A stretch of 64,000 nucleotides of DNA from positions 558,001 to 622,000 of the forward strand of contig NC_017955.1 in assembly GCF_000306785.1 (NCBI RefSeq). Direction: 5' to 3'. The notes beneath the pieces were generated by a model, which saw only the letters and a list, made by a program, of their open reading frames with translations, was not told the origin of the DNA and searched no databases. Position 1 is the first letter of the stretch. Every line of letters starts with the position of its first letter. Made by a program: the position numbers and the translations under genes. Below, in pieces: positions 23,220 through 58,286 of this stretch. This DNA is from Modestobacter italicus (lineage in GTDB: Bacteria > Actinomycetota > Actinomycetes > Mycobacteriales > Geodermatophilaceae).

Positions 23220-23278
23220 GAAGGACCCCCTCGCCCCCCACCACTCGCGAGCTCGTGGCGGGCCCCTGCGAGGGGGCC
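23220..23278 (+). repeat. Post-stop structured element, family 1, copy 1
   Basis: It begins 5 bp behind the lacI stop and reads with the gene. It shows the family layout: GAAGGACCCC, outer arm CTCGC paired with GCGAG, inner arm CCAC paired with GTGG, loop TCGCGAGCTC, and the block GGGCCCCT. Confidence 0.8.
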
Positions 23279-23328
23279 GTTCCAGCACGTCACCTGAACG
23301 TCGAAACGCGCGGGACACACGGTCTGTC

Positions 23329-23334
23329 TAGGTT
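23329..23334 (+). promoter_or_regulatory. -10 box TAGGTT of a likely leaderless transcript (ATP-grasp operon)
   Basis: TAGGTT ends 7 nt before the ATG at 23342, after the family 1 element that closes lacI. Confidence 0.45.
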
Positions 23335-23341
23335 CACCACC

Positions 23342-24994
23342 ATGGCGGACCTCTTCGACGGCTACCCCCTCGGGCAGCAGTGGGACGAGATGTTCGAGGC
23401 CCCCGCCCAGCCCCGCCCGCCGTACACCGGTCTGTACAGCTCGCTGCAGCCGATGTCGGGGGAGGAGCTGGCCGCCCGGGCCGACGTCCTCTCGCAGACC
23501 TACCGGGACGCCGGGGTGACCTTCGCGCACGCCGGCGAGGAGCAGCCCTTCCCGCTGGACATCGTGCCCCGGGTGATCGGGCACGAGGAGTGGTCGCTCA
23601 TCGAGCGCGGGGTGGCCCAGCGGGTGCACGCCCTGGAGGCGTTCCTCGCCGACGTCTACGGCGCCGGCCAGGTGTTCACCGACCGCGTCGTCCCGCGCAG
23701 CGTCGTCACCACCAGCGCGCACTTCCACCGCGCCGCGCACGGCCTGGTGCCGCCCAACGGCGTCCGCGTGCACGTCTCCGGGATCGACCTGGTCCGCGAC
23801 GAGGCCGGCGACTTCCGGGTGCTGGAGGACAACCTCCGCTCGCCGTCCGGGGTGAGCTACGTGATCACCAACCGGGCCGCGATGAGCCAGGTGCTCCCGG
23901 AGCTGTTCGGTGACCACCGGGTGCAGCCGGTCAGCGACTACCCGGGCCGGCTGCTGGCTGCGCTGAAGGCCTCCGCCCCGACCGGGGTCGCCGACCCGAC
24001 CGTCGTCCTGCTGACCCCGGGCGTCTACAACTCCGCCTACTTCGAGCACGCGCTGCTGGCCCGCCAGATGGGCGTCGAGCTGGTCGAGGGGCGCGACCTG
24101 GTGTGCTCGGGCGGTCAGGTCAGCATGCGGACGACGGACGGCCAGCAGCGCGTCGACGTCATCTACCGCCGGATCGACGACGAGTTCCTCGACCCGGTGC
24201 ACTTCCGCTCCGACTCGGTCATCGGCTGCGCCGGGGTGCTGAACGCCGCCCGCGCGGGCCGGGTGACCATCGCCAACGCGGTGGGCAACGGCGTCGCCGA
24301 CGACAAGCTGCTCTACACCTGGGTGCCGGACCTGATCCGCTACTACCTGGCCGAGGAACCCGTCCTGCAGAACGCCGACACCTACCGGCTCGACGAGCGG
24401 GACACCGTGGAGTGGGTGCTGGCCTCGCTCGACCAGCTGGTGCTCAAGCCGGTCGACGGCTCGGGTGGCAAGGGCATCGTCATCGGCCCGCGCGCCGACC
24501 AGCGCACGCTGGAGGAGCTCGCGGTCAAGGTCCGCGCCGCGCCGCGGGACTGGATCGCCCAGAAGCCGATCGGCCTGTCGACGTCCCCGACGCTGATCAA
24601 CGGCCGGATCGCCCCCCGGCACGTCGACCTGCGGCCGTTCGCGGTCAACGACGGCTCCGACGTGTGGGTGCTGCCCGGCGGGCTGACCCGGGTGGCGCTG
24701 CCGGAGGGCGAGCTGGTGGTCAACTCCAGCCAGGGCGGCGGGTCCAAGGACACCTGGGTGATCACCCCGCCGCGGCCGGCCGCCGAGCCCGCGCCCGAGC
24801 ACGACGTCACCCGGATCGAGTTCACCACCGCCGACCTGCCGGCCGAGCCGCCCGCCCAGGACCCCGGCCCGGCCAACGACAACGCGATCGCCCAGTCCCA
24901 GCAGCAGCAGCAGCAGAAGGACCCCGCCCTCCTCACCCCTCGCGAGCTCGGGGCGAGCCTCTGGGCGGGGCCGACGGGAGGTGCCCCGTGCTGA
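23342..24994 (+). CDS. Circularly permuted ATP-grasp protein
   Basis: A 550-residue protein of the circularly permuted ATP-grasp family, first of a three-gene set with alpha-E and transglutaminase proteins. Typical segments include ADVLSQTYRDAGVTF, FHRAAHGLVPPNGVRVHVSGIDL, FRVLEDNLRSPSGVSYVI, and the ATP-site stretch VLKPVDGSGGKGIVIGP, where Gly-rich GSGGKG is the loop. Comparative genomics has predicted that such enzymes make peptide-like bonds. The C-terminus is odd: a CAG-coded Gln tract (about 521-526) is followed by about 20 residues encoded by a family 1 repeat. A 7-nt overlap links it to the next gene. Confidence 0.9.
   Translation: MADLFDGYPLGQQWDEMFEAPAQPRPPYTGLYSSLQPMSGEELAARADVLSQTYRDAGVTFAHAGEEQPFPLDIVPRVIGHEEWSLIERGVAQRVHALEAFLADVYGAGQVFTDRVVPRSVVTTSAHFHRAAHGLVPPNGVRVHVSGIDLVRDEAGDFRVLEDNLRSPSGVSYVITNRAAMSQVLPELFGDHRVQPVSDYPGRLLAALKASAPTGVADPTVVLLTPGVYNSAYFEHALLARQMGVELVEGRDLVCSGGQVSMRTTDGQQRVDVIYRRIDDEFLDPVHFRSDSVIGCAGVLNAARAGRVTIANAVGNGVADDKLLYTWVPDLIRYYLAEEPVLQNADTYRLDERDTVEWVLASLDQLVLKPVDGSGGKGIVIGPRADQRTLEELAVKVRAAPRDWIAQKPIGLSTSPTLINGRIAPRHVDLRPFAVNDGSDVWVLPGGLTRVALPEGELVVNSSQGGGSKDTWVITPPRPAAEPAPEHDVTRIEFTTADLPAEPPAQDPGPANDNAIAQSQQQQQQKDPALLTPRELGASLWAGPTGGAPC
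24916..24972 (+). repeat. Post-stop structured element, family 1, copy 2 (inside coding sequence)
   Basis: The element lies in the 3' end of the ATP-grasp frame and is translated as KDPALLTPRELGASLWAGP. Outer arms are GCCC/GGGC, inner arms CCCC/GGGG, and the loop is TCGCGAGCTC as in the intergenic copies. A CAG triplet run directly precedes it. Confidence 0.75.
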
Positions 24995-25938
24995 GCCGGA
25001 TCGCGGAGTCGTTGTTCTGGATCGGCCGGTACGTGGAGCGGGCCGACGACACCGCCCGCATCCTCGACGTGCACACCCAGCGGCTGGTCGAGGACCCGTG
25101 GATCGACGAGCGGCGGGCCTGCGCGAACCTGCTGGCGCTGATGGGTGCGCCGTGCGCGGAGGAGGAGGCCGACACCGAGCGGGTGCTGGCCACGCTGGCC
25201 TTCGACCGGTCCAGCCCGAGCTCGATCACCGGGGCGCTGTCCGCGGCGCGGGAGAACGCCCGCGGCGCACGCGAGGTGCTCTCGGCGGAGATCTGGGAGT
25301 CGCTCAACGTCACCCACAACGCCCTCCCGCAGCAGCGCACCATGGCCCGCCGGTACGGCCCGCACTCGCTGTTCCGGTTCGTGCGGGAGCGCTCGGCGAT
25401 GGTGTTCGGGCTGGCCGACGCCACGATGAGCCGCGACGAGAGCTGGCTGTTCCTCATCCTCGGCCGCTCTCTGGAGCGGGTCGACATGACCGCCCGGATG
25501 CTGTCCACCCGCGTGCTGGCCGGGGACGCCGCGCCGTCCTGGACGCTGGTGCTGCGCTCCACCGGCGCCTACGAGCCCTACCTGCGCACCTACCGCGGCG
25601 CGGTGAACTCCAGCCGGGCCGCCGAGTTCCTGCTGCTCGACCGGCTGTTCCCCCGCTCGGTGTTCGCCTCGCTGGAGCAGGCCGAGGGCTGCCTGGCCGA
25701 GCTGGAGCGGGCCAACGTGCGCGAGGGGCACCGGGTCGGCGTCGCCGGCGAGGCGCACCGGATCGTCGGCCGGGCGCGGACGATGCTGGAGTTCATGCAG
25801 ACCGACGAGATCCTGGCCAAGCTGCCCACCCGTCTCGACGAGCTGCAGCGCACCTGCTCGCTGGCCAGCGAGGCGGTCACCAGCCGGTTCTTCACCGAGC
25901 AGGCACCCCAGATCTGGGTGCCGGAGAGCGTCGGGTGA
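24988..25938 (+). CDS. Alpha-E domain protein (DUF403 type)
   Basis: A 316-residue all-helical protein starting LSRIAESLFWIGRYVERADDTAR, the hallmark of the alpha-E family. Other conserved parts are WESLNVTHNALPQ and a C-terminal helix ending VTSRFF. The GTG start at 24988 overlaps the ATP-grasp stop (24992-24994), and its own stop overlaps the transglutaminase start (GTGA). The family always travels with circularly permuted ATP-grasp and transglutaminase genes. Its biochemical role is not established. Confidence 0.92.
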   Translation: MLSRIAESLFWIGRYVERADDTARILDVHTQRLVEDPWIDERRACANLLALMGAPCAEEEADTERVLATLAFDRSSPSSITGALSAARENARGAREVLSAEIWESLNVTHNALPQQRTMARRYGPHSLFRFVRERSAMVFGLADATMSRDESWLFLILGRSLERVDMTARMLSTRVLAGDAAPSWTLVLRSTGAYEPYLRTYRGAVNSSRAAEFLLLDRLFPRSVFASLEQAEGCLAELERANVREGHRVGVAGEAHRIVGRARTMLEFMQTDEILAKLPTRLDELQRTCSLASEAVTSRFFTEQAPQIWVPESVG

Positions 25939-26846
25939 CGGGCGTGCCCCAGTCGCAGTCCCAGTACCAGACCCAGGTCCAGGGCCCGGCCCGGGTGCCC
26001 AGCGACCGCTGGCGGCTCCAGGTCGTGCACCGCACCCAGTTCCGCTACGGCGGCCCGGTCCGCTCCTCCTACAACGAGGCGCGGATGACCCCGGAGAACA
26101 GCAGCCGGCAGACGACGCTGCGCTCGCGGGTGGAGATCGAGCCGACCGCGACCGTGCACGCCTACCGCGACTACTGGGGTTCGACGGTCACCGCCTTCGA
26201 CACCCACGGCCCGCACACCGAGCTGGTGGTCAAGGCCACCTCGGTGGTCGAGGCCGGGCCCGAGCCGCACCTGCCCGACCCGGTCGACTGGACGGCGCTC
26301 GCCGAGCCCGACGTCCTGGACCGGTTCGGTGAGTTCCTGCGCCCCTCCCGGCTGACCGCGATGGACGAGCCGGTGGTGGCCGCCGTCCGCGAGGTCGTCG
26401 GCGACGCCGGCCCGCGGGAGGCCGGCCGCCTGGTCTGCCGGTTCGTGTACGAGCACATGGAGTACCTGACCGGCTCGACCAACGTGAAGACCAACGCGAT
26501 GCAGGCCTGGACCTCCGGCAAGGGGGTCTGCCAGGACATCTCGCACGTCTCGGTCGGCCTGCTGCGCGCGCTCGGGCTGCCGGCCCGCTACGTCTCCGGC
26601 TACCTGCACCCCAAGCCGTCGGCGCAGATCGGGCAGGCCGTGACGGGGGAGAGCCACGCCTGGGTGGAGTGGTGGGACGGCGGCTGGTCGGGTTACGACC
26701 CGACCAACGTCGTCGAGATCGGCACCCGGCACGTGACGCTGGCCCGGGGTCGGGACTACACCGACGTGCCGCCGCTCAAGGGCATCTTCTCCGGGCCGAA
26801 GAGCGAGGGCTCGAAGGTCACCGTGGAGGTCACCCGCCTCGCCTGA
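25935..26846 (+). CDS. Transglutaminase-like cysteine peptidase of the ATP-grasp/alpha-E set
   Basis: A 303-residue transglutaminase-fold enzyme. The N-terminal beta domain (about 25-110) begins with LQVVHRTQFRYGGPV. The catalytic triad is visible as C199 in GKGVCQDISHV, H241 in GESHAWVEWW and D255 in GYDPTN. This bacterial family is predicted to hydrolyse or ligate peptide bonds in a product of the partner ATP-grasp enzyme. The start GTG overlaps the alpha-E stop by 3 nt. It has no signal peptide. A terminator hairpin follows. Confidence 0.92.
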   Translation: MTGVPQSQSQYQTQVQGPARVPSDRWRLQVVHRTQFRYGGPVRSSYNEARMTPENSSRQTTLRSRVEIEPTATVHAYRDYWGSTVTAFDTHGPHTELVVKATSVVEAGPEPHLPDPVDWTALAEPDVLDRFGEFLRPSRLTAMDEPVVAAVREVVGDAGPREAGRLVCRFVYEHMEYLTGSTNVKTNAMQAWTSGKGVCQDISHVSVGLLRALGLPARYVSGYLHPKPSAQIGQAVTGESHAWVEWWDGGWSGYDPTNVVEIGTRHVTLARGRDYTDVPPLKGIFSGPKSEGSKVTVEVTRLA

Positions 26847-26852
26847 ACGACG

Positions 26853-26888
26853 CGACCCCCGCACCGCCGGGCGGCGGTACGGGGGTCG
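26853..26888. terminator. Bidirectional terminator after the transglutaminase gene
   Basis: CGACCCCCG and ACCGCC pair with GGCGGT and CGGGGGTCG, with one mismatch between the two helices. The next gene is convergent and stops at 26900. Confidence 0.75.
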
Positions 26889-26899
26889 GGTCGGTCAGG

Positions 26900-27574
26900 T
26901 CACGTGGGGTCGGGTTCCAGGTTCCGCCGGGGGACGCCGGTGGTGTCCTCGGGCCGGGTCATCGGGGGTGACCAGCCGGTCCGCTCGGGCACGTGGGTGC
27001 GCCAGCCGTCGCGGCGGCCGGCGACCCACGCCTCGCCCAGGTCGGTCCGCTGGCCGTCGGCCTGCAGCGCCGGCCAGCCGCGGCCGGCGGCCACGCAGGC
27101 CACCGCCCAGCCGACCTTGGTGGCCACGCCGAGCCGGCGGAACGCCGGGGCGACGTAGACCTGGCGGACCAGGCCGGTCGCGGCGTCCCACCGCATGGCC
27201 CCCACCTGGTTGCTCCAGTCGATGCCCAGGGCCTGGAGGCCGGCCTCGTCCAGCACGTCGCCCTCGGCCCGGTCCGGCGTGGAGAAGGCGACCAGGTCGA
27301 CCTCCGACGCCGTACCGGGGGCCGGGAGGACGACGTACCAGAGCACCGGCGCCCCCGGGACCGCCGCGTCGGCGATCAGCACCCGGGAGGGCGCCTGGCC
27401 GGGGCCGGGCAGGTGCACCTCGGCGACCCAGCCGGTGGGACGGCGGACCGGCGGCGGGAGCTGGACCACCGTCCCGTCGGCGAACTCCGCGCTGGCCACG
27501 GCCACCACCACGTACCCCGGTTCACCGGGGGCCTGGTGGTGAGCGCGCCAGAGCGACTCCAGGCCGCTGGGCAT
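26900..27574 (-). CDS. GNAT-like protein of unknown function
   Basis: A 224-residue protein. The segment VRQVYVAPAFRRLGVATKVGWAVACVA (about 136-162) looks like the acetyl-CoA site of GNAT acetyltransferases (V-x-P-x-x-R-R-x-G-x-A). The N-terminal half, with WYVVLPAPGTASEVDLVAF, matches nothing I recognise. It begins 12 bp behind the stop of the LAYTG surface protein and is probably cotranscribed with it. A protein N-acetyltransferase role is only a guess. Confidence 0.6.
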   Translation of the reverse strand: MPSGLESLWRAHHQAPGEPGYVVVAVASAEFADGTVVQLPPPVRRPTGWVAEVHLPGPGQAPSRVLIADAAVPGAPVLWYVVLPAPGTASEVDLVAFSTPDRAEGDVLDEAGLQALGIDWSNQVGAMRWDAATGLVRQVYVAPAFRRLGVATKVGWAVACVAAGRGWPALQADGQRTDLGEAWVAGRRDGWRTHVPERTGWSPPMTRPEDTTGVPRRNLEPDPT

Positions 27575-27586
27575 CGACGACCCCGC

Positions 27587-29104
27587 TCAGGCGGAGCGAC
27601 GCCGGGCGGCGACGGTGACGGCTGCGGCGCCGGCGGCCAGCAGGCCACCACCGACGGCGATCAGCGGCAGGACGTCGGTGCCGGTGTAGGCCAGGCCGCC
27701 CGAGGTGGTCGCGGCCTCGGTCACCGTGAACGTCGCCTCAGCGGTGATGCCGCTGGTCAGGCCCTGCATCTCGACCGTGTGGGTGCCGGCCTCGAAGCCC
27801 GCGGGGACGGTGAAGGTGAAGGTCGCGACGCCGTTCGCGTCGGCCTGCACCGTGCCGAGGTCGACCGGCGTGGAGTGCAGCACGCCGCTCACCATCTCGC
27901 CGGGCAGGAACCCGCCGATGCTGATCGTCTGCTGCTTGCCGGCGGCCAGCGAGGCGGCGGCGACGGACTTCGTCGCCGGGGTGGTGACCGTGGGGGCGGG
28001 GGCGGCCGGCGTGGTCGGCTGGGTGACCGGCGCGCCCAGCTGCAGGCGGACGGCCGTGTCGCGCTCGGCCAGCGAGGTGGCGATCCCGACCTCGAGGGTC
28101 AGCGGCGTGGTCGGCGCGCTGGACGCGAACAGCGTGTAGGTGCCCGGCTGGTAGATGCCGTCGAAGGTCGCGTTCCCGGAGCCGTCGGTGGTCACCGTCG
28201 CGAAAGAGTCCTCGTCGACGCTCGCCAGGGTGATCAGGTCGCCGTCGGTGTCACCGTCGTCCTCGGAGACGCAGTCCCAGTCGGCGACCGTGCAGAGGCG
28301 GAACTCCTCGCCGGCCGGGCCGCCGGAGATCCCGATCTGCCGGTAGCCGTGCGGGGCGACCAGCGGTACGTACACCGAGCCGAACAGGTCGTCGCTGCCG
28401 AAGATGGGGTCGATCGATCCGGTGCCGGCGCTGCTGTGGGCCTGGGTGCTCACGGTGGCGCCCGGGAGCAGCAGCACCTGGCCGGAGTCGGGACCCTTGA
28501 CGAGGGTGAGGGTGTAGACCGAGTTCGCGGGGATGTTGGCCAGGCCCGGGTTGAAGGGCGACTTCGGGACGGTCGAGCTGCTCGGGAAGACGCAGGCGTA
28601 GTAGTCGAAGGTGCAGGTGCCCTCCGCCGTCGAGGGAGCACCGCTCAGCGTGCTGTACGTCAGCTTCACCTGGGCGCCGGTCGGGTCGATCTCCTCGGAG
28701 TCGATGCCCGAGCCCTCCGGGGCCTCCAGCTGCGGGTAGAGCTTGCCGGTGCCGTAGTCGGCACCGGGCAGCGTGACGGCCGGCTGCGCGTCCGCCGAGG
28801 TCGTCGGCGCCGCCGGGACGGCCGGGGCGGTCGTCGTGGGCGCGCTCGTCGCGGGGGACTCGGTCGTAGCGGTGGCCGGGGCGTCCGTGGCGGTGGCGGT
28901 CGGCTCAGGCGTCAGGACCGTGGTCGGCGTGGGGGACGTGGTCTCCGGCGCCGTCGTCGGGGCGGCGGTGTCGGTCGGGGCAGCGGTCTCCTCGGCCAGG
29001 GCGGCCGGCGCGAACGCCCCTGCCGTGGTCAGCAGTCCCATGGTGACTGCTGCCGTACGGATGGCCGTGGGCTTGCGGAGAACAGCCGAAGAGCTGCGCG
29101 TCAT
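27587..29104 (-). CDS. Secreted surface protein with LAYTG sorting signal (likely class E sortase substrate)
   Basis: A 505-residue cell-surface protein. A signal peptide (about 1-38, ending AALAEE) leads into a Thr/Pro/Ala-rich stalk (about 40-105). Next come a domain with CTFDYYACVF and LCTVADWDC cysteines and an Ig/prealbumin-like segment (GNATFDGIYQPGTYTLFAS). A second beta domain runs from about 400 to 465. The C-terminus is LAYTG (471-475), a hydrophobic helix and ARRRSA. LAxTG is the motif preferred by class E sortases of actinobacteria. No sortase gene lies in the window. The partner or function is unknown. Confidence 0.85.
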   Translation of the reverse strand: MTRSSSAVLRKPTAIRTAAVTMGLLTTAGAFAPAALAEETAAPTDTAAPTTAPETTSPTPTTVLTPEPTATATDAPATATTESPATSAPTTTAPAVPAAPTTSADAQPAVTLPGADYGTGKLYPQLEAPEGSGIDSEEIDPTGAQVKLTYSTLSGAPSTAEGTCTFDYYACVFPSSSTVPKSPFNPGLANIPANSVYTLTLVKGPDSGQVLLLPGATVSTQAHSSAGTGSIDPIFGSDDLFGSVYVPLVAPHGYRQIGISGGPAGEEFRLCTVADWDCVSEDDGDTDGDLITLASVDEDSFATVTTDGSGNATFDGIYQPGTYTLFASSAPTTPLTLEVGIATSLAERDTAVRLQLGAPVTQPTTPAAPAPTVTTPATKSVAAASLAAGKQQTISIGGFLPGEMVSGVLHSTPVDLGTVQADANGVATFTFTVPAGFEAGTHTVEMQGLTSGITAEATFTVTEAATTSGGLAYTGTDVLPLIAVGGGLLAAGAAAVTVAARRRSA

Positions 29105-29125
29105 CTCGTGACCTCATGTCGTCTT

Positions 29126-29151
29126 CCGCCGTCCATCGGCGGGATTCGCCG
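29126..29151 (-). promoter_or_regulatory. Two mutually exclusive hairpins in the 5' region of the LAYTG gene
   Basis: On the minus strand CGGCG(aatcc)CGCCG and CCGCCG(atgga)CGGCGG share the middle arm, so only one can form at a time. They end 22 nt before the LAYTG-protein start. The remaining about 180 bases to the ABC-F start contain no other feature I can support. Confidence 0.35.
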
Positions 29152-29334
29152 CAGATGTTGGCCCTTGCCTGTGACCTGCAGGTTCGCGACCCGCGGCGTG
29201 TCGGTCACCGAAACGAGATCGTCCGCCACTCCTGGGGCGAGTGGGTCGCCCGGTGCGCGTGGGGTGCCCGGGGCGCTGCCGGGACGCGCGGCGGCATGGG
29301 GGAGAATGGCCGGGATGACCGCTGGACCGCCCCG

Positions 29335-31188
<1,854 letters not shown>

Positions 31189-31189
31189 T

Positions 31190-31248
31190 GAAGGACCCCG
31201 GTGCCCCCCACGGCTCGCAGGCTCGCCGCGGGCCCCTGCACCGGGGCC
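31190..31248 (+). repeat. Post-stop structured element, family 1, copy 3
   Basis: It begins 1 nt behind the ABC-F stop. Outer arms are GGTGC/GCACC, inner arms CGGC/GCCG, and the loop is TCGCAGGCTC. Both helices differ from the other copies but remain fully paired. Confidence 0.8.
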
Positions 31249-31288
31249 ACCGCCGGGGGCGGAGATCCAGCTCCGCCCCCGGCGATGA

Positions 31289-33088
<1,800 letters not shown>

Positions 33089-42556: not shown

Positions 42557-42630
42557 TCGGGGTGACAGGATTTGAACCTGCGGCCTCGTCGTCCCGAACG
42601 ACGCGCGCTACCAAGCTGCGCCACACCCCG
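42557..42630 (-). tRNA. tRNA-Pro(CGG)
   Basis: A 74-nt cloverleaf on the minus strand. The acceptor arm CGGGGTG pairs with CACCCCG, the anticodon arm is CGTCG-TTCGGGA-CGACG with anticodon CGG, and the T arm contains GGTTCAAATCC. The discriminator base is A. The genome sequence after it does not encode CCA. Confidence 0.95.
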
Positions 42631-42662: not shown

Positions 42663-42709
42663 GGCCCTCTCGCAGGGGCCCGGCGAGTGCCGGGGGGCCG
42701 AGGGGGTCC
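42663..42709 (-). repeat. Post-stop structured element, family 1, copy 4 (divergent, short)
   Basis: It lies 5 bp behind the phosphoesterase stop, in gene orientation. It keeps GGACCCC and GGGCCCCT with arms CTCG/CGAG, but the inner part is shortened to CCGG-cactcg-CCGG and the standard loop is lost. Confidence 0.6.
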
Positions 42710-42714
42710 GCCAG

Positions 42715-44145: not shown

Positions 44146-44149
44146 CGAC

Positions 44150-44239
44150 AGGACCCCGTTCCCTCCCAGCTCGCCCCACCGGGGCCCCGTTCAGGGGCCC
44201 GCGCTGAGCTCGCGAAGCGTGGGGGGAACGGGGTCCTTC
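44150..44239. repeat. Two family 1 elements facing each other (copies 5a and 5b)
   Basis: The minus-strand element (44183-44239) closes the penicillin-binding protein gene, with outer arms GTTC/GAAC, inner arms CGCT/AGCG and loop TCGCGAGCTC. A partial plus-strand element starts at 44150 behind yqeY. AGGACCCCGTTCC (44150-44162) is perfectly complementary to 44225-44237, so the whole region can fold as one hairpin between two convergent genes. Confidence 0.75.
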
Positions 44240-49038: not shown

Positions 49039-49044
49039 TAGCGT
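49039..49044 (+). promoter_or_regulatory. -10 box TAGCGT of a likely leaderless transcript (DUF4177-Rid)
   Basis: TAGCGT ends 6 nt before the ATG at 49051, divergent from the ArsA promoter 36 bp away. Confidence 0.5.
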
Positions 49045-49050
49045 CGCGCC

Positions 49051-49801: not shown

Positions 49802-49821
49802 GCCTCCTGCGTCGGCGTGGC

Positions 49822-50628: not shown

Positions 50629-50729
50629 TCCTGGCGGATCACACCGCGGCCAGGTGCCGGGTTGCGCTGCGCTGAGCCGTTGGCCGTGTCCCGGCGAGGG
50701 ACCCTCCGGGCCCCGTCACCGGTCCACCC
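50625..50729 (+). repeat. Post-stop repeat, family 2, copy C
   Basis: It opens with the hairpin GTGATCC-tggc-GGATCAC, whose 5' arm includes the NUDIX stop TGA. It continues with CACCGCGGCCAGGTGCCGGG and a CCTCCGGGCCCCG block. It is a direct repeat of copy B on the other side of the NUDIX gene. Confidence 0.65.
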
Positions 50730-50783
50730 CTCGCTGCGCTCGGGTCCGTACCGGTGGTCCCGTCACTCGTGGTCCCCTCGCCT

Positions 50784-50830
50784 GAACGCGAGAGGCCCGG
50801 AACTCGGTGAGTTCCGGGCCTCTCGCGTTC
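50784..50830. terminator. 22-bp perfect hairpin after crp
   Basis: GAACGCGAGAGGCCCGGAAC plus TC (50784-50805) pairs without mismatch to 50809-50830 over a 3-nt loop. It ends 10 bp from the crp stop on the minus strand and could also stop plus-strand transcription from the NUDIX gene. Confidence 0.85.
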
Positions 50831-50840
50831 GACGGTCTTC

Positions 50841-51515: not shown

Positions 51516-51676
51516 GTGCACCTCTCGCAACGTCCTCACGGGTGCGATGGCGACCCGCGTCCAGGAGAGTCTAGGGCCTGTGGCTGACCTCACCAGTGCA
51601 CTGAGTCACCGGACTGCCCACTCTGAGTGGCTCCGGGGGTCGTCCCTCCCGGTGAGCGGGCCGGGTGTGCATCCGC

Positions 51677-51961
51677 TCAGTCGGCGTGCTGGGGTTGCTC
51701 GCTGGGCTCGGTCACCCGGTCGGTGAGCACCGGACTGGGCACCCGGCGGCCGCGGCCCCGGCGCCGGGCCCGCCACCGGGACATCGCCCGGCGGATGCCG
51801 GAGTGGGCCAGCGTGCCGACCTCGGCCTCGGTGGCGGTGCCCAGGAAGTCCTCGACCTCGCGCTGCGAGGTGGGCCGGCGCAGCGGCTCCTCGACCCGCT
51901 CCATGACGAGCAGGAAGGCGATGAGCAACGGCGGGAACAGGATGACGATGAGGGCGACCAC
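51677..51961 (-). CDS. Small membrane protein (Rv3675-like position)
   Basis: A 94-residue protein with one N-terminal membrane helix (VVALIVILFPPLLIAFLLVMERVEEP, about 1-26). A basic stretch follows (RRAMSRWRARRRGRGRR). The GTG at 51961 has an excellent ribosome-binding site (GGAGGTG). It sits between crp and nth, where mycobacteria also encode a small membrane protein. I do not know its function. The region of 161 bp downstream, to crp, holds a 13-bp palindrome CCACTCTGAGTGG at 51618-51630 and nothing else clear. Confidence 0.72.
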   Translation of the reverse strand: MVALIVILFPPLLIAFLLVMERVEEPLRRPTSQREVEDFLGTATEAEVGTLAHSGIRRAMSRWRARRRGRGRRVPSPVLTDRVTEPSEQPQHAD

Positions 51962-52094
51962 GTGCACCTCCTCGGCGACGTCTGCGGGCAGGCCGCCCAG
52001 GTGAGGACGACGTCGGTCGTGCGGTCTGATGGTGGCGCGCTGTCCGTTGGGCCGCGCACCGCCGTCGAGTATGACGGTCGGCGCCCGGCAGCGT

Positions 52095-52163
52095 ACGTGC
52101 GGCGGAGGCCGTGTTGCACCTGCGGCGGAGCCTGTGTCGCACGTGCGGCAGAGCCTGGGGGAG
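52095..52163. repeat. Three tandem copies of a 23-bp repeat upstream of nth
   Basis: Copies at 52095-52117, 52118-52140 and 52141-52163 share AC(G/C)TGCGGC(G/A)GAG and a following TGT(T/C)GC in the first two. The period of 23 is not a multiple of 3, so the repeat is non-coding. This argues against an nth start upstream of it. Confidence 0.7.
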
Positions 52164-52171
52164 GCGACGCC

Positions 52172-52177
52172 TACCCT
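52172..52177 (+). promoter_or_regulatory. -10 box TACCCT of a likely leaderless nth transcript
   Basis: TACCCT ends 7 nt before the GTG at 52185. Confidence 0.45.
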
Positions 52178-52184
52178 CACTCGC

Positions 52185-52997
52185 GTGTCCCGGCCCGCCA
52201 CCGCACCCGACGCCCTCCCGGCCTACACACGACCCGTACCGCCCCGGCGTCCCGGTCGCGCGGCGCGGCTGGGGATCTCCCCGTTCGACCCGGAGGAGAG
52301 CCCGCTGGGGCGCACCCGGCGGGCCCGGCGGATGGCCCGGGAGCTGGCGGCCATCCACCCGGACGCGCACTGCGAGCTGGACTTCACCACCCCGCTGGAG
52401 CTGCTCGTGGCCACCGTCCTGTCGGCGCAGACCACCGACCGGACGGTCAACAAGGTCACCCCGGCGCTGTTCGCCCGCTACCCCGACGCGTACGCCTACG
52501 CCAGCGCCGACCGGGACGAGCTGGAGACGATCCTGAAGCCGACCGGCTTCTTCCGGGCCAAGGCCACCTCGGTGATCGGCCTGGGGCAGGCGCTGGTCGA
52601 GCGCTTCGACGGGGAGGTGCCCGGGAAGCTGGTCGACCTCGTCACGCTCCCGGGCGTGGGCCGCAAGACCGCCAACGTGGTGCTCGGCAACGCCTTCGGC
52701 GTCCCCGGGCTCACCGTGGACACCCACTTCGGCCGGCTGGTGCGCCGCTTCGGCTGGACGGCGGAGGAGGACCCGGTCAAGGTCGAGACCGAGATCGCGG
52801 CGATCGTCCCCAGGAAGGAGTGGACGATGTTCTCCCACCGCGTGATCTTCCACGGCCGGCGGGTGTGCCACGCGAAGAAGCCCGCCTGCGGGGCCTGCGG
52901 GCTGGCCGCCTGGTGCCCCTCCTACGGTATCGGGCCGCTGGACCCCGAGGTCGCCGAGAAGCTGGTCAAGACCCCCGCTGCCTCGGACACCGAGTGA
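52185..52997 (+). CDS. nth: Endonuclease III
   Basis: A 270-residue DNA glycosylase/AP lyase that removes oxidised pyrimidines. The helix-hairpin-helix is [21 protein letters not shown] with catalytic K161, and the general base is D179 in VDTHFGR. Their spacing of 18 equals that in Escherichia coli Nth (K120/D138). The [4Fe-4S] cluster has C-x6-C-x2-C-x5-C in [17 protein letters not shown]. An extra Pro/Arg-rich N-terminus of about 45 residues precedes the core. The stop overlaps the TlpA-like gene (GTGA). Confidence 0.95.
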
Positions 52998-53584
52998 GCC
53001 GCGCCCTGCGCGCCGCCGGCGCCCTGCTGGTGCTGTTCGCGCTGCTGGCGGGCTGCACGTCGGCGGAGTCCGACGAGCCGGCGCCGACGCCGGCGAGCAG
53101 CGACCTGGAGTCCCTCGACGCCGACCTGCAGCCCTGCCCGGAGCAGCCCGACCAGCCGGCCGCCGACAGCGACCTGCCCGCCACGGTCTTCGACTGCTTC
53201 GGCGGCGGCACCCTCGACCTCAGCCGCGCCCCCGGGGTGCCGACCGTGGTCAATCTCTGGGCCAGCTGGTGCGGGCCCTGCCGGGAGGAGCTGCCGCTGG
53301 TGCAGCAGCTCGCCGACGCCGGCGGTGAGCGGGTGCGGGTGCTCGGCGTGGCCAGCCTCGACGGCGCCTCCCAGACGGCGTCCTTCGCGAAGGACGCCGC
53401 GATCAGCTTCCCGAGCGCCTTCGACGGCGAGGGGGAGGTGATGGCCGCGATCGGGGTCAACACGCTGCCGCACACGATCTTCCTCGCCGCCGACGGCTCC
53501 ATCGCCTACGTGCAGGTCGGTCAGGTGCAGTCGCTCGCGGAGTTCGAGCAGCTGGTCGCCGACCACTTGGGCGTGCAGCTGTGA
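52994..53584 (+). CDS. TlpA-like thioredoxin-fold lipoprotein
   Basis: A 196-residue exported thiol-disulfide protein. The signal peptide ends in the lipobox LLAGC (C about 21), followed by a Ser/Asp/Pro linker. The thioredoxin fold has [17 protein letters not shown] with the redox pair C93/C96 and a cis-Pro region NTLPHTIFL. It probably reduces extracytoplasmic disulfides, for example in cytochrome c assembly, though no such genes are nearby. It is in the conserved nth-thioredoxin-NUDIX-marP order, and both ends overlap neighbouring genes (GTGA). Confidence 0.93.
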
Positions 53585-54348
53585 CGCTCCCCGCCGACGA
53601 GCTCGCCGGGCTGCCGGAGCACGTCCAGCGGCTGGTCGCGCACGCCGGCGAGCTGCCGCTGTGGCACCGGCACGGCGCGCCCTCGGCCACCGCCCGCCGC
53701 TCCGCCGTCCTCATCCTGTTCGGGCAGGGCCCCGGCGGCCCGGACGTGCTGCTGATCGAGAAGTCCGCGCACCTGCGCAGCCACGCCGGGCAGCCGGCGT
53801 TCCCCGGCGGCGGCGCCGACCCGGGGGAGGACTACCCGGTCGGCACCGCGCTGCGCGAGGCGCAGGAGGAGGTCGGCGTCGACCCGGCGAGCGTGCGGGT
53901 GCTGGCGACGCTGCCGGCGCTGTTCCTCGGCCCGTCGGACAACGTCGTCGTCCCGGTGGTCGGCTGGTGGGACGACCCGCGGGAGATCGCGACCGCCGAC
54001 CCGCGCGAGGTGGCGAAGGTCGCCCGGGTGCCGCTGGCGCAGCTGGTCGACCCGGCGAACCGGTTCCGGGTGCGGCACCCCGCCGGGTACGTGGGGCCCG
54101 CGTTCGGGGTGGCCGGCATGGTCGTCTGGGGCTTCACCGCCGGCCTGCTGGACGCCGTCCTGCAGGCCGCGGGGCTGAGCCTGCCCTGGGACGCCGGCGA
54201 CGTCCGGCCGCTCACCGGCCTGGCCGCGGCGGCACCGGCGGACTCCGAGGAGGAGCCGGTGGACTCCGACGTCGCCGACCGCGCCGCGCCGACGGTCGCC
54301 GACGACGGAGGACGGACAGGTTCGCCGCGTACCGTCCCCGGACCATGA
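53581..54348 (+). CDS. NUDIX hydrolase, CoA pyrophosphatase type
   Basis: A 255-residue NUDIX enzyme. The region LLIEKSAHLRSHAGQPAFPGGGADPGED is the UPF0035 signature of CoA diphosphatases, and the Nudix box continues TALREAQEEVGVDP. It probably cleaves CoA or acyl-CoA to phosphopantetheine and ADP. The last 45 residues (from about 210) are acidic, low complexity and absent from most relatives. The GTG overlaps the upstream stop, and its own stop overlaps the small cupredoxin-like ORF (ATGA). Confidence 0.92.
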   Translation: MTLPADELAGLPEHVQRLVAHAGELPLWHRHGAPSATARRSAVLILFGQGPGGPDVLLIEKSAHLRSHAGQPAFPGGGADPGEDYPVGTALREAQEEVGVDPASVRVLATLPALFLGPSDNVVVPVVGWWDDPREIATADPREVAKVARVPLAQLVDPANRFRVRHPAGYVGPAFGVAGMVVWGFTAGLLDAVLQAAGLSLPWDAGDVRPLTGLAAAAPADSEEEPVDSDVADRAAPTVADDGGRTGSPRTVPGP

Positions 54349-54530
54349 GCCCGGCCCGGTCCCGCGCTGCGCGCGGAAGCGGCCGGCCGGCCCCGTTCGG
54401 CGGGCTGCTGGCCGGCCTGCTGCTGGCAGAGACGATCGAGTTCACCGTCAGCGCGCCGGGTGACCACCCCGTCGAGTGCAGCTTCCACGCCGCGCTCGGG
54501 CAGGTGGGCACCATGACGGTGAGCGGGTGA
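54345..54530 (+). CDS. Cupredoxin C-terminal fragment (61 residues)
   Basis: A small ORF fits exactly between the NUDIX gene (ATGA overlap) and marP (TGATG overlap). After a basic and hydrophobic start comes IEFTVSAPGDHPVECSFHA and then ALGQVGTMTVSG. This matches the end of a plastocyanin-like cupredoxin: C-x2-H, then the axial-ligand position, here Gln instead of Met, and G-T-x-x-V. The upstream strands and the first copper His are missing, so it looks like the remnant of a longer exported copper protein, or a very small product. The tight coupling suggests it is still translated. Confidence 0.5.
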   Translation: MSPARSRAARGSGRPAPFGGLLAGLLLAETIEFTVSAPGDHPVECSFHAALGQVGTMTVSG

Positions 54531-55711
54531 TGTCCCTCGTCGACCTGGCCCTCATCGTCCTCGCGCTGGTGTTCGCGCTGTCCGGCTTCCGGCAGGGGCT
54601 GATCGTCTCCGCGGCCTCCTTCGTCGGCTTCTTCGGCGGCGCGGTGCTCGGCGCCCAGCTGTCCGGGCCGCTCGCCGACGACATCGCCGACTCCTCGGTC
54701 ACCCGGGTGTTCGTGGCCCTGGTCGTGGTGCTCGCCGGTGCCCTGCTGGGGCAGCTGCTGGCCGGGGTGATCGGCCGCGCGGTGCGCACCCGGGTCACCT
54801 GGGAGCCGGCCAAGATGGTCGACGCCGTGGCCGGGGCGGTCGTCTCGGCGGCCGCCGTCCTGCTGGTGGCGTGGATGGTGGCCACCCCGCTGGCCAGCTC
54901 GCCGTTCCCCGGGGTCGCCGGGCAGGTGCGCCAGTCGGCGCTGGTGCAGGTCGTGGACCGGACGGTGCCCTCGCAGGTGCGCTCGCTCTACGACTCGCTG
55001 CGGACGGCGATCGACCGGCAGGGCCTGCCCGACGTGCTCGACCCGCTCACCCCGACCGAGGCGCGGGACGTCCCCGCGCCGGACCAGGCGCTGCTGGACA
55101 GCCCCGTCGTCGGCAGCGTGCAGGGCTCGGTGGTGCAGATCCGGGGGATCGCGGCGTCCTGCTCCCGGCAGATCGACGGCTCCGGCTTCGTCTTCGCCGA
55201 CCAGCGGGTGATGACCAACGCGCACGTGCTGGCCGGGGTCAGCGACCCGCAGGTCACCGCCGAGGGCGAGGCGTACGACGCGACGCCGGTGTACGTCGAC
55301 GAGGAGACCGACATCGCCGTCCTCGCCGTGCCCGGGCTGCCGCAGGTGCCGCTGCGCTTCACCCCGAGCCCGGTGGACACCGGCGCGGACGCGATCGTGA
55401 TGGGCTACCCGGGCGGCGGCGGCCTGTACGTGGGTCCGGCCCGGGTCCGGGACCGCGGGGAGATCAGCGGACCGGACTTCCGCTCCACCCGGACCGTGCA
55501 GCGGGACGTCTACGCCCTGTACGGGCAGGTGCGGGCAGGCAACTCCGGCGGCCCCCTGCTGGCCACCGACGGCTCGGTGCTGGGCGTCGTCTTCGCCTCC
55601 GCGATCGACGACCCGGACACCGGCTACGCGCTCACCGCGGCCGAGGTCGCCGACGCGGCGGCCACCGGGACCGCTGCGGTCGCCGCGGTCGACACCGGTC
55701 CCTGCGAATGA
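54530..55711 (+). CDS. marP: Membrane-anchored periplasmic serine protease MarP
   Basis: A 393-residue protein close to Mycobacterium tuberculosis MarP (Rv3671c, 397 aa), which protects cells against acid and oxidative stress. The CvpA-like N-terminal half has four membrane helices from LVDLALIVLALVFALSGFRQG to VVSAAAVLLVAWMVATPLA. The chymotrypsin-fold protease has H232 in TNAHVL, D261 in EETDIAVL and S339 in AGNSGGPLL. Cysteines near 218 and at the C-terminus could form the regulatory disulfide known from MarP. The ATG at 54530 overlaps the small ORF before it. Confidence 0.94.
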   Translation: MSLVDLALIVLALVFALSGFRQGLIVSAASFVGFFGGAVLGAQLSGPLADDIADSSVTRVFVALVVVLAGALLGQLLAGVIGRAVRTRVTWEPAKMVDAVAGAVVSAAAVLLVAWMVATPLASSPFPGVAGQVRQSALVQVVDRTVPSQVRSLYDSLRTAIDRQGLPDVLDPLTPTEARDVPAPDQALLDSPVVGSVQGSVVQIRGIAASCSRQIDGSGFVFADQRVMTNAHVLAGVSDPQVTAEGEAYDATPVYVDEETDIAVLAVPGLPQVPLRFTPSPVDTGADAIVMGYPGGGGLYVGPARVRDRGEISGPDFRSTRTVQRDVYALYGQVRAGNSGGPLLATDGSVLGVVFASAIDDPDTGYALTAAEVADAAATGTAAVAAVDTGPCE

Positions 55712-55767
55712 AAGGACCTCGTTCCCCCCACGCTTCGCAAGCTCAGCGCGGGCCCCTGAACGAGGCC
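55711..55767 (+). repeat. Post-stop structured element, family 1, copy 6
   Basis: It begins at the last base of the marP stop. Here the otherwise constant CCCC/GGGG is CCTC/GAGG, a compensated change. Outer arms are GTTC/GAAC, inner arms CGCT/AGCG, and the loop is TCGCAAGCTC. Confidence 0.8.
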
Positions 55768-55799
55768 GGCGGCTGGGTGCGGCGCGCAGCTGGGTTGCG

Positions 55800-56729
55800 C
55801 TAGGGGGTCGCCCAGCCGGCGATGGCGGCGGTGACGTCGGCGGGGGTCTCCTCCTGCGGGAAGTGGCCGGCGCCGGGCAGCTCGCGCCACTCGTAGGCCC
55901 CGGCGACGTAGCGGTCGGAGCCGAGGGCGGTGCGCGGCAGGACGTAGGGATCGAGGGCGCCGTGCAGCTGCAGGGTGGGCGCGGTGACCGGTGCGGCCAT
56001 CCGGCGGGCGAAGCGCAGCCCGTCGGGCCGCAGCTGGGAGCGGCCGGCCCAGCGGTAGTACTCCATCGCGCCGTAGGCGGCCTGCGGGATCCGGGAGGCC
56101 GCCCGGTAGCGGTCCACCGCCTCGGCGAAGTCCGCGGTCTGCACCCAGGCCGGCCCCGCCCAGCGGCGCATCAGGTCGGCGACGGGGTCGTCGTCGGCCC
56201 GGGTGAGCCGCCGCTCGGGGAGCCGGGGGAGCTGGTAGTGCAGCGCGTAGGCCAGCGCGCGCCGCTGGCGCCCGTCGGTGACCGAGGCGCGCAGCCGCCG
56301 CGGGTGCGCCGCCCCGATGACGACGAGCCGGCGCACGCTGCGCGGGTGCAGCGCGGCCATGGTCCAGCCGACCAACCCGCCCCAGTCCGCGCCGACGACG
56401 ACGGCGTCGGTCTCGCCGAGCGCGCGGATCACCGCGGCGGCGTCGGCGGCGGCGGTGGGCAGGTCGTAGCCGCGCGGCGGCTTGTCGCTGGCGCCGTAGC
56501 CGCGCAGGTCCGGGGCGACCACGCGCAACCCGGCCGCGGCCAGGCCGGTGAGCTGGTGCCGCCAGGTCCACCAGAACTGAGGGAAGCCGTGCAGCAGCAG
56601 GACCAGCGGACCGTCACCGGCCTCGGCGGCGTGCAACCGGACGCCGTTGGCCGAGACGTCGCGGTGCGCCCAGGGGCCGGGGAGCAGGACGCTGGTCGCG
56701 TCCGGCTGCCCGTCCTGGGGTTCGGTCAT
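55800..56729 (-). CDS. Alpha/beta hydrolase, epoxide hydrolase type (EphE-like)
   Basis: A 309-residue alpha/beta hydrolase. HGFPQFWWTWRHQL supplies the oxyanion-hole motif HGxP. The nucleophile is the Asp of VVGADWGGLVGW, which marks epoxide hydrolases and haloalkane dehalogenases. The acid Asp is in GALDPYVLP and the base His in GAGHFPQEE. A lid Tyr pair typical of epoxide hydrolases could be in MEYYRWAGRS. It occupies the place of EphE (Rv3670) next to marP. The natural substrate is unknown. Confidence 0.9.
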   Translation of the reverse strand: MTEPQDGQPDATSVLLPGPWAHRDVSANGVRLHAAEAGDGPLVLLLHGFPQFWWTWRHQLTGLAAAGLRVVAPDLRGYGASDKPPRGYDLPTAAADAAAVIRALGETDAVVVGADWGGLVGWTMAALHPRSVRRLVVIGAAHPRRLRASVTDGRQRRALAYALHYQLPRLPERRLTRADDDPVADLMRRWAGPAWVQTADFAEAVDRYRAASRIPQAAYGAMEYYRWAGRSQLRPDGLRFARRMAAPVTAPTLQLHGALDPYVLPRTALGSDRYVAGAYEWRELPGAGHFPQEETPADVTAAIAGWATP

Positions 56730-56736
56730 GCAGGGA

Positions 56737-57240
56737 TCAGCGCAGGCGTGCGTGCGGGTCCTGGCGGACGACCTGACCGTTGCGGACGACGGGCAGGTCG
56801 TGCTGCCGCTGGCCGGGGGCCTCGCGGCGGGCCAGGTCGGGCAGGTCCGACAGCGTCTCGAGGGTCTTCTCCGGCTTCTTGATCTTCTTGACCTGGCGGT
56901 AGCCGATGAACCCGGCGACCGCGGCGATGAGGACCAGGAGGGCGAAGACGATGAGGTAGGAGATCCACCGCGCCAGGCCCAGCCAGGTGAAGAACTCGGC
57001 GAGCGCGATGAAGAAGAAGATCGCGGCGAAGGCCAGCAGCACGCCGGCGGCGGCGAAGGCGGCAGCACCGATGCCGCCGCGCTTGGCCGAGACGGTCACC
57101 TCGGTCTTGGCCAGCTCGATCTCCGAGCGGATCAGCGTGGACATGTCGGCCATGGCGCTCTTGGCGAGCGTGCCGACCGAGGGCTCGGCGGGGCCCGCGG
57201 ACCGGACCGCCGGCTGGGTCGTCGAGACACTGTGGGCCAC
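56737..57240 (-). CDS. Phage-holin-family (PF07332-like) membrane protein
   Basis: A 167-residue protein with two adjacent membrane helices (AAAFAAAGVLLAFAAIFFFIALAEFF and ARWISYLIVFALLVLIAAVAGFIGY, about 58-115). An amphipathic start, MSTLIRSEIELAKTEVTVSAKRGG, precedes them. This layout is that of the actinobacterial holin-like/DUF1469 family (Rv3669). The C-terminus is basic. It overlaps no gene but starts the transcript leading to the epoxide hydrolase 7 bp later. The GTG at 57240 follows GGGAGGAG. No lysis role is implied. Confidence 0.85.
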   Translation of the reverse strand: MAHSVSTTQPAVRSAGPAEPSVGTLAKSAMADMSTLIRSEIELAKTEVTVSAKRGGIGAAAFAAAGVLLAFAAIFFFIALAEFFTWLGLARWISYLIVFALLVLIAAVAGFIGYRQVKKIKKPEKTLETLSDLPDLARREAPGQRQHDLPVVRNGQVVRQDPHARLR

Positions 57241-57356
57241 GGGTGGCTCCTCCCTGATCAGCGCCCGGATCGGCGCGTTCCTCGGGTGATCGTGCCGCAT
57301 GATCGCCACGCCCGCCGGTCCGGGTCACCCGGGTGAGTGCCGCGTCACCCGGGTCG

Positions 57357-58064
57357 TCAGGCGATGTCGCACAGGCAGGGGCAGTCCTCGACGTGCGGGA
57401 CCGCCTGCTGCCGCGGGGACAGCGGCCCGTCGGCGAACAGCAGGTCGTCGCACGCCGGCGGGCAGGTGCACACGGGGTCCGACCACAGCGGCAGGCCGAG
57501 CCGGAGCCGTTCCTGCACGCGCAGCTGGTGCTCCGCGAGCTCCTTGCGCCACCGTTCGCGCCACGCTGCTCGGGCCGCCTCGGCCCGGACGCGTGCGCGG
57601 TCCGCCGGGGCGTCGCCGGCCCGCGGCGGCTGGTGGTCCGGCGGGGTCCCCGCAGCCTTGCGCTGGCTGTCACGCCAGTCGCGGCGCCGGTCGAACGTGT
57701 ACCAGGGCTGAGGGCGGCTCCGATACCAGTCGGCATGCCACCACTGGTCGTCGCCGTAGCGGGTGTCCAGGTGCGCCGGGAAGTGCCGCCCCGCGCGGTC
57801 GCGGACCGCGTTCCGGTCCATCCCCCGCACCTCGCTGCCGGTCGCATCGAGCAGGCCCAGCCGCAGTCCGGCCAGACCTGCCGCCCGCACGAGCACGCCC
57901 ACCGGGAGGTCGCGCTGGCCGAGCTCCGCCCGCGCCACGGTCGACCGGGCCACCGCGAGGGCGTCGGCGAGCTCGCGCTGGGACAGGTCCGCAGTGCGAC
58001 GGATCCGCCGGAGCAGGGCGCTGAGCAGGCCCTCGTCCCCGGCGGCGGGCGGCGCATCCGTCAC
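57357..58064 (-). CDS. XRE-type HTH protein with Cys/His-rich C-terminus (paralogue B)
   Basis: A 235-residue paralogue of the gene at 33179-33823. The HTH (about 15-62) reads LLRRIRRTADLSQRELADALAVARSTVARAE across its helices. The middle block HLDTRYGDDQWW ... PWYTFDRRRDWRDS is shared. The tail has C199-x-C201-x3-C205, H224 and C228-x-C230-x-C232, the same spacing as in paralogue A except for the loop before His. It may be a DNA-binding sensor with a Zn or Fe-S site. It stands between the holin-like gene and acs, outside the conserved block order. Confidence 0.7.
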   Translation of the reverse strand: MTDAPPAAGDEGLLSALLRRIRRTADLSQRELADALAVARSTVARAELGQRDLPVGVLVRAAGLAGLRLGLLDATGSEVRGMDRNAVRDRAGRHFPAHLDTRYGDDQWWHADWYRSRPQPWYTFDRRRDWRDSQRKAAGTPPDHQPPRAGDAPADRARVRAEAARAAWRERWRKELAEHQLRVQERLRLGLPLWSDPVCTCPPACDDLLFADGPLSPRQQAVPHVEDCPCLCDIA

Positions 58065-58150
58065 CCGGACGATGGTGCCGTTCAGCCGCTCGCTCCGGGG
58101 CCGGCGTGCTGCAGCCTGTGGACGAGCTGGTGGTCCGGGGGTGGTCCCGG

Positions 58151-58195
58151 GACGCTCGTGCTCTGCTGCCTGGGAGGCAGCAGAGCACGAGCGTC
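58151..58195. terminator. 20-bp perfect hairpin upstream of HTH/Cys paralogue B
   Basis: GACGCTCGTGCTCTGCTGCC (58151-58170) pairs perfectly with 58176-58195 over TGGGA. The flank GGTGGTCCCGGGAC resembles GGTGGTCCTCGGAC at the hairpin upstream of paralogue A. It lies between the HTH gene start and the family 1 element closing acs, and probably ends acs read-through. Confidence 0.75.
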
Positions 58196-58227
58196 ACAGA
58201 TGACCTGCTGGACTCGGCCCCCTGCAC

Positions 58228-58286
58228 GGCCCCGCTGCAGGGGCCCGCGCTGAGCTTGCGAAGCGTGGGGGGCAGCGGGGTCCTTC
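58228..58286 (-). repeat. Post-stop structured element, family 1, copy 7
   Basis: It lies 1 nt behind the acs stop, in gene orientation. Outer arms are GCTGC/GCAGC, inner arms CGCT/AGCG, and the loop is TCGCAAGCTC. Confidence 0.8.

Follow-up and report, generated by a model that had tools for sequence, protein, structure and literature searches.

A probable dispersed palindromic DNA repeat of the Geodermatophilaceae, sited on stop codons

In the genome of Modestobacter italicus a stretch of 64,000 nucleotides (positions 558001-622000 of a single contig of 5,575,517 bases, G000:C1; hereafter the window) contains several genes that are followed, nearly flush with their stop codons, by copies of a 59-nt palindromic element. 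The question raised by this locus is whether these copies are an RNA structure kept by selection at the ends of messages or a DNA repeat dispersed among genes. We consider it probable that they are members of a single family of palindromic DNA repeats dispersed in Geodermatophilaceae genomes, non-autonomous, sited on stop codons and similar in kind to the repetitive extragenic palindromes (REP) and the miniature inverted-repeat transposable elements (MITE).

The core of the element reads GAA-GG-A-CCCC-NNNN-C-CC-CCC-A-NNNN-TCGCRRGCTC-NNNN-C-GGG-NCCCT-G-NNNN-GGGG-CC, its 5' end being GAAGGACC. It forms an outer helix of 11 pairs and an inner helix of 7 pairs with an A.C step, and has an asymmetric C-rich internal loop. 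In the outer arm four pairs vary freely, in the inner arm two or three, while the other pairs are near-constant, and the invariant pairs GGACCCC/GGGGCC and the loop are conserved across the aligned copies. The two covarying helices with constant loop and linkers, which the original prediction had described from the letters of the window, are thus all seen in larger alignments. The base 3' of the core is G in 81 of the 103 copies aligned from the M. italicus genome itself (own copies), and a 16-nt tail starting with GTTCCA (consensus GTTCCAGCACSTCACC) follows 12 of these 103 and 24 of 117 other copies. In a B subfamily (CTCCTCA...CGAGCCTC) a T-A pair replaces C-G at the middle of the inner CCC/GGG in 12 own copies, whose linkers have T opposite T in 9 and C opposite T in 3; 5 own C-G copies have T opposite C in the linkers. 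Single copies are predicted to fold at -23.5 to -35 kcal/mol, moderately better than shuffles (z -1.6 to -2.6).

The pairing of the helices is real. In 103 distinct own copies 96.7% of the cells are paired (81.4 when shuffled) and the covariation score is 0.359, against 0.109 in shuffles, of which 0 out of 500 were as high, and at most 0.106 when the structure was slid along the alignment. A second set, 116 distinct named-contig copies tested with a structure set in advance from the own copies, has 96.1% of its cells paired and a score of 0.327 (0.100 when shuffled, 0.089 at most when slid). Since both alignments were made by fitting to the model, they are to that extent biased towards its structure. 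Alignment A3, made without the model from 20 of 30 loci (the 10 omitted have short or odd arms), gives 95.8% paired and a score of 0.296 vs 0.089. The count of further pair types, one of five measures, was not above shuffles in A3 (421 of 500 as high) nor in the 103 own copies (24 vs 23.4; 233 of 500 as high); in the 116 named-contig copies all five measures, this one included (0 of 500), exceed every shuffle. The outcome by which the original prediction would have fallen, arms paired no more than expected by chance, did not occur against shuffled or slid controls with 20, 103 or 116 copies.

Compensated change had been taken to indicate selection on a folded RNA or DNA. The paired change stands, but the step from it to selection on RNA is not supported, in view of the wobble counts, the wholesale replacement of copies described below, and template switching. 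A fold of the gene-strand RNA should favour G-U; in 67 copies not selected by sequence pattern there are 6 G-U cells and 10 A-C cells outside pair 29:49 (24 including it), with 13 other mismatches outside this pair. By a simple stem count 21 tRNAs have 5 G-U and 0 A-C in 252 stem pairs, and the contrast between element and tRNA gives a Fisher p of 0.035 without pair 29:49 and of 0.0014 with it. In this small sample G-U is not above A-C, and the covariation is nearly all Watson-Crick. The named-contig copies were mostly recruited by a 5' pattern, which biases their G-U and A-C counts (18 and 54), so that the test was made on the 67 copies. An antisense RNA, in which A-C would be G-U on the opposite strand, was set aside since the A-C excess comes mostly from the one subfamily pair 29:49. 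Template switching can make and repair perfect stems and lead to Watson-Crick compensated change at the DNA level, according to PMC8794818. Copying between sites would also yield compensated arms.

The family is large. The 5' pattern GRRGGACCYCN{3,9}CCCCCA matches the genome 57 times and its reversed control once, and a covariance model built from 20 copies matched 147 of the 150 candidates scored in the same genome at E up to 1, with 3 of the 147 weak (E above 1e-4). The absence of further copies genome-wide, which the original prediction had also named as a refutation, is therefore not what was found. Capping the scored candidates at 150 might conceal some copies. A separate scan of 464 kb with default filters gave 21 strong matches, every one already among the 147, and 4 weak ones besides; as it added no new strong copy, the total is near 150, and we take about 150 copies to be close to the true number. 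They are spread unevenly: the stretch of 1.9-2.5 Mb has 2 of the 147 and the part past 5.2 Mb has 3, whereas 27 fall in 4.5-5.0 Mb and another 43 in 0.5-1.5 Mb.

The model search covered 58 relatives (93 candidates scored per genome) and a sample of the class (28 per genome). All 22 genomes of the same genus were positive, as were 9 of 12 from other Geodermatophilaceae genera, one of them with just 5 matches; among 24 relatives of other families one genome had a single weak match (E 0.004), and 0 of 196 other sampled genomes of the class matched at E 1e-6. Family members poor in copies include G025, G027, G029 and G031. In a named genome collection at least 116 stretches carry the 5' pattern, and all 80 listed bear Geodermatophilaceae names. 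The genera among the matches listed are Blastococcus, Geodermatophilus, Modestobacter, Klenkia, Trujillonella, Goekera and unnamed Geodermatophilaceae; the membership of Klenkia, Goekera, Trujillonella and Modestobacter was confirmed by look-up, and Blastococcus and Geodermatophilus we take to belong to the same family. Plasmid and phage collections (blastn) and viral contigs (exact pattern) gave no match to the element. In Rfam the window yields just one tRNA at gathering score, and around the copy at 58228 there are 21 permissive matches, none close to its gathering score. The repeat is thus apparently family-wide and without description in Rfam or in the open-licence literature searched, and the original prediction, to which no described family of this layout was known, agrees with the lack of an Rfam family.

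The copies stand on stop codons. A count made without gene calling took in 103 copies of this genome and 117 of the 118 others. The end of a stop codon falls between -5 and +3 of base 1 in 92 of the own copies, against 2-9 in 14 control windows, and in 98 of the 117 named-contig copies, against 4-16 in control windows. The post-stop, gene-directed position that had been predicted is borne out by this placement, except that the marP copy of the window overlaps the last base of its TGA. With a codon-usage gene caller, applied to the 100 of the 147 matches having at least 1 kb of flank, the registers are TGA+1 (49 copies), TGA-2 (11), TAG-1 (6), TAG+2 (4) and TAA-3 (3), and 19 copies are unassigned, having no called stop near them; 10 of these 19 have a stop in any frame at -5 to +3. 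For 110 named-contig copies the registers are TGA+1 (50), TGA-2 (13) and TAG-1 (8). All three stop codons are used and the type of stop sets the register: TGAN|GAAGG, T|GAAGG, TAGNN|GAAGG, TA|GAAGG, and TAA overlapping. In the +1 register the base following TGA is close to evenly distributed (C16 G14 A11 T8), whereas of 353 TGA stops across 464 kb 297 are followed by C or G (chi-square p 7e-5). A sub-group at 730288, 880881, 3419163, 3894117, 4839640 and 5203340 has TGAACAAGG or TGATCAAGG at the stop, not TGANGAAGG.

The next gene is convergent for 43 of the 100 copies, compared with 124 of 392 gene ends overall, and in 14 of these 43 cases no more than 3 nt lie between the end of the facing gene and the 3' end of the element; codirectional next genes begin at scattered distances (median 46 nt). 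Inside called genes lie 6 of the 100 copies, on the same strand at 84986, 269943, 582916, 882870 (which also overlaps an upstream stop) and 4883320, and on the opposite strand at 4359110. The host genes looked at, those of the window plus 10 sampled elsewhere, are ordinary and dispersed.

In the window cmsearch with filters off found six strong copies, one decayed and one partial, the best unrelated match next in line scoring 17.8 bits. The seven copy positions and motifs of the original prediction were verified on the sequence, and all seven were recovered by the model. These copies and the features retained beside them are:

23220-23278, plus strand: element of A type, outer arm CTCG/CGAG, 86.2 bits, beginning 5 nt past the TAG of a LacI-type regulator gene (Pfam)
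23279-23294, plus strand: long-form 3' tail GTTCCAGCACGTCACC of the 23220 copy
24916-24972, plus strand: element of B type (inner pair CTC/GAG), 65 bits, in frame within the end of a CP_ATPgrasp gene (Pfam)
31190-31248, plus strand: element, 84 bits, 1 nt past the TGA of an ABC transporter gene (Pfam)
31251-31284, plus strand: terminator-like hairpin retained 3' of the 31190 element
42663-42712, minus strand: decayed element, 31 bits, with a metallophosphoesterase gene (Pfam) before it and a tRNA gene (42557-42630) after it
44148-44199, plus strand: weak match to a partial element, 20.6 bits, after the yqeY stop and facing the 44183 copy
44183-44239, minus strand: element, 73.2 bits, 1 nt past the TGA of a penicillin-binding-protein (PBP) gene (Pfam)
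55711-55767, plus strand: element, 68.3 bits, overlapping the final base of the TGA of a Colicin_V/trypsin-domain gene (Pfam; marP in the original prediction)
58151-58195, minus strand: 21-bp palindrome P2 retained 3' of the 58228 element; P2-like palindromes are also downstream in relatives G006, G007, G010 and G014
58228-58286, minus strand: element, 87.3 bits, 1 nt past the TGA of an acetyl-CoA-synthetase-type (ACS) gene (Pfam)

The copy at 24916 had been called a coding one and is so, since open reading frame 23342-24994 continues through it and its translation ends ...QQQQKDPALLTPRELGASLWAGPTGGAPC*. The gene before the 31190 copy has two ABC_tran domains (Pfam) and is probably of ABC-F type. 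The copy given as degenerate at 42663-42709 is extended by the model to 42712; its weak match is read as a decayed family member given that G010 has a full element at this site, while G007 and G014 have none.

Comparison of orthologous sites indicates that copies appear and vanish between close relatives, nearly always at stops. At the marP site 17 of 20 same-genus loci were readable and 13 of these 17 (own included) carry an element at the stop or within 8 nt of it, with differing arms; G006 has a 5' scar and G003, G013 and G017 have no element. The marP-site copies have a mean identity of 0.805 (36 pairs, 9 of the 13 copies), against 0.806 in 600 random own pairs. At the ABC-F stop the element occurs in M. 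italicus only, in 1 of 29 family loci shown (that of G027 is cut by a contig end), and at the ACS stop there are 5 clear elements in 28 family loci shown (that of G062 is cut). At the latter stop M. italicus and three close relatives each have a different element, their upstream flanks being 95-98% identical, and G014 has none. At one stop G006 has the element where M. italicus, G010, G007 and G014 have another hairpin, and near position 2341 of the window M. italicus has palindrome P1 (from TGA to TCA; see below) where G007 and G014 have the element. The stop orthologous to that of the 23220 copy bears in G014 an element with identical outer arms and in G007 a different palindrome. 3' halves of older copies persist behind full elements at 85069, 3292921, 4274113 and 4452065 and at marP of G001 and G005. 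One site, at about 49.0 kb between divergently read genes, is off any stop and has the element in G007, G010 and G014 and none in M. italicus and G006, which counts against a strict stop rule.

The orientation of the element at the PBP/yqeY site varies among relatives. The 44148 match comprises the 5' half only (about 44149-44180), the remainder overlapping the 44183 copy, so that in 44148-44239 a 5' half in yqeY orientation is opposed to a full element in PBP orientation, both with GTTC arms; G010 has a full yqeY-oriented copy only and no PBP-oriented one. The arrangement in M. italicus would fit a local inversion of the element, or a reversed copy made in place. Near leuA an almost identical element (arms GGTG, CGGC) stands behind the ABC-F gene in M. 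italicus (31188-31190) and behind a different gene, of 309 aa, in G014, with the same leuA adjoining; recombination between elements may have removed or added the gene next to leuA.

As a dispersed repeat, the element would be copied or exchanged among gene ends by some machinery, and would enter or survive mostly flush with the stop codon and in gene direction. Its turnover would consist of transposition or copy exchange with the arms repaired at the DNA level, and the flush siting would result from targeting plus tolerance, the latter because the first post-stop base is the nearest place at which a palindrome spares the protein. In the mRNA the hairpin would be at most an extra U-less 3'-end hairpin, a role that is possible as secondary to the DNA repeat.

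Several points weigh against the DNA repeat. Plain random insertion plus tolerance would not predict that positions deeper in the 3' untranslated region are nearly unused. No mobilising enzyme was found by the Y1_Tnp search (PF01797, the domain of the REP-associated tyrosine transposase, RAYT), which gave 0 in the M. italicus genome and 0 in 57 family genomes while the control was positive in 5 of 14, and no autonomous copy was noticed, no systematic search having been aimed at one. No target-site duplications were seen by eye in filled and empty pairs, and these differ by block replacement without clean insertion. The copies of M. italicus and G014 beside leuA differ at 2 of 59 bases and their 23220 copies share outer arms, so that some copies have been inherited and not replaced. 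The invariant GGACCCC/GGGGCC pairs and the loop could just as well reflect binding by a protein or an RNA, and the G-U/A-C test is limited by small counts and by a model-fitted alignment.

Of the three options in the original prediction (lineage-specific terminator, mRNA 3'-end or ncRNA motif, REP-like mobile palindrome) the last fits best, although the expected RAYT was not found in this and the 57 family genomes. REP elements are high-copy dispersed palindromes near gene ends and carry a GTAG-type tetranucleotide at the hairpin foot. The element resembles them as a dispersed extragenic palindrome in many copies (147 matches), but it has no GTAG foot, starting instead with GAAGGACC, lacks an accompanying Y1_Tnp gene in the genomes searched, and consists of two stacked helices with a constant internal loop, set flush with stops in fixed registers. 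REP and REPIN elements are short sequences that multiply within the genomes of bacteria and are maintained there for very long (PMC8049555). The mycobacterial interspersed repetitive units (MIRU) are short, apparently mobile and inserted at start codons with a coupled open reading frame (PMC12548453); like these the element is a short actinobacterial repeat at a codon that matters for translation, but it is anchored on the stop, with the next start free at scattered distances and 43 of 100 next genes convergent. An intrinsic terminator, U-less ones included, is likewise a stable GC-rich hairpin close behind a stop, whereas the element is a dispersed homologous family with a conserved loop and no U-tract, behind which other hairpins can remain. 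The 24916 copy, read in frame as a protein tail, recalls the Rickettsia palindromic elements, from which the family differs in that most copies here lie outside coding sequence. Integron attC sites are imperfect palindromes of about 60 bp right after the stop, gene-directed, with a structure kept while the arms vary, and have GTTRRRY core sites and cassette arrays. The element is alike in length, position, direction and varying arms; membership was rejected as the aligned copies have no GTTRRRY core sites, the host genes are dispersed and ordinary, and no cassette array was seen. With a structured RNA of the Rfam type it shares covariation, without the G-U preference or an Rfam match.

Another explanation, a minor though serious possibility, is a lineage-specific 3'-end RNA or terminator, in which the post-stop mRNA hairpin would terminate transcription in the absence of a U-tract, or halt 3'-to-5' decay, and the fold would be under selection. 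The stable predicted folds, the gene direction and the excess of convergent next genes agree with it, as does the element of G006 that stands in place of another hairpin. Moreover 11 of 33 other strong hairpins at convergent ends lie 0-2 nt from stops, each palindrome being counted from both sides. Hairpins near stops and U-less hairpins are common in bacteria according to PMC8355165, so that a 3'-end role is possible. On the other side 0 of 103 own copies have at least 4 T in the 8 nt downstream, G-U is not favoured, and the ABC-F and ACS stops are without a copy in most family genomes. At gene ends that lack the element a strong stem occurs in 33 of 60 convergent cases and 27 of 140 codirectional ones, against 3 of 200 shuffled. 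Of the 44 copies with 35 nt or more behind them, 11 are followed by another hairpin (5 of 10 convergent, 6 of 34 codirectional). These rates are alike with and without the element, which therefore seems to have been added independently of terminators. In 32 of the 43 convergent cases less than 35 nt are left behind the element, which may there be the sole strong hairpin. The terminator option of the original prediction is thus disfavoured by the missing U-tract and by other hairpins not being generally displaced.

We advance only tentatively, as a rather unlikely mode of spread, that translation termination guides the insertion of a mobile element, which would re-enter the same stop codons repeatedly in gene direction and in registers that depend on the stop type. 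The nearly uniform base after TGA looks as if the junction bases arrive with the element. If true, a mover reading mRNA or ribosomes at stops, or an intermediate with an R-loop or nascent transcript, would be needed.

It is quite improbable that the element is a site for a DNA- or RNA-binding protein which reads the constant loop, the linkers and the GGACCCC/GGGGCC ends, with the variable arms as spacers. Near-invariant paired positions and a constant loop beside freely varying pairs are what such a site would show; recent common descent of the copies explains this constancy too, roughly 3% of genes carry the element (an estimate from 147 copies and 401 gene ends per 464 kb), the 10 host genes run, out of 30 listed, have no common function, and copies appear and vanish at orthologous genes. 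Least probable of all is a translation-linked element whose geometry to the stop matters for release, recycling, readthrough or re-initiation, as the fixed registers and the start GAAGGA, which resembles a Shine-Dalgarno sequence, might suggest. Against it, the stop distance takes several values depending on stop type, codirectional next genes are scattered, and convergent ones make up 43 of 100. A start codon that would follow GAAGGA at positions 12-14 was also rejected, the common arms CTCG, GTCC and CTCT having no NTG.

Other palindromes share these gene ends. P1 (GGAGTGCCAGGGCGCG...CACTCC) is a second dispersed palindrome, found at 2343-2380 of the window and at L072 6695-6732, L078 15282-15319, L083 7370-7407, L084 13350-13387 and L088 10551-10588; a loose regular expression gave 7 matches over 464 kb, 6 of them convincing, and in several places P1 spans the gap between two convergent stop codons. 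P2 (GCTCGTGCTCTGCTGCC...GGCAGCAGAGCACGAGC) is a third, at 58154-58192 of the window, at L072 4077-4115 and 13628-13666 and at L084 10336-10374, and is likely a terminator; four relatives have similar hairpins 3' of their ACS gene. Further palindromes, of the type CCATGTTGGCCAACATGG / GGCCATTTCGGCC, occur at the same gene ends as the element, behind ACS in G063 and G071 and in the G007 ortholog of the 24916 gene, where one stands in place of the coding element.

Helices that covary without tolerating wobble pairs are weak evidence of an RNA function, and the question arises of how many covarying motifs described as bacterial RNA are DNA palindromes kept complementary by copying. The surprising part of this repeat is its siting, which raises the further question of what places a DNA element exactly on translation stops. 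In the Geodermatophilaceae the sequence of the repeat can change faster than the adjoining genes while its position at the stop codon persists.

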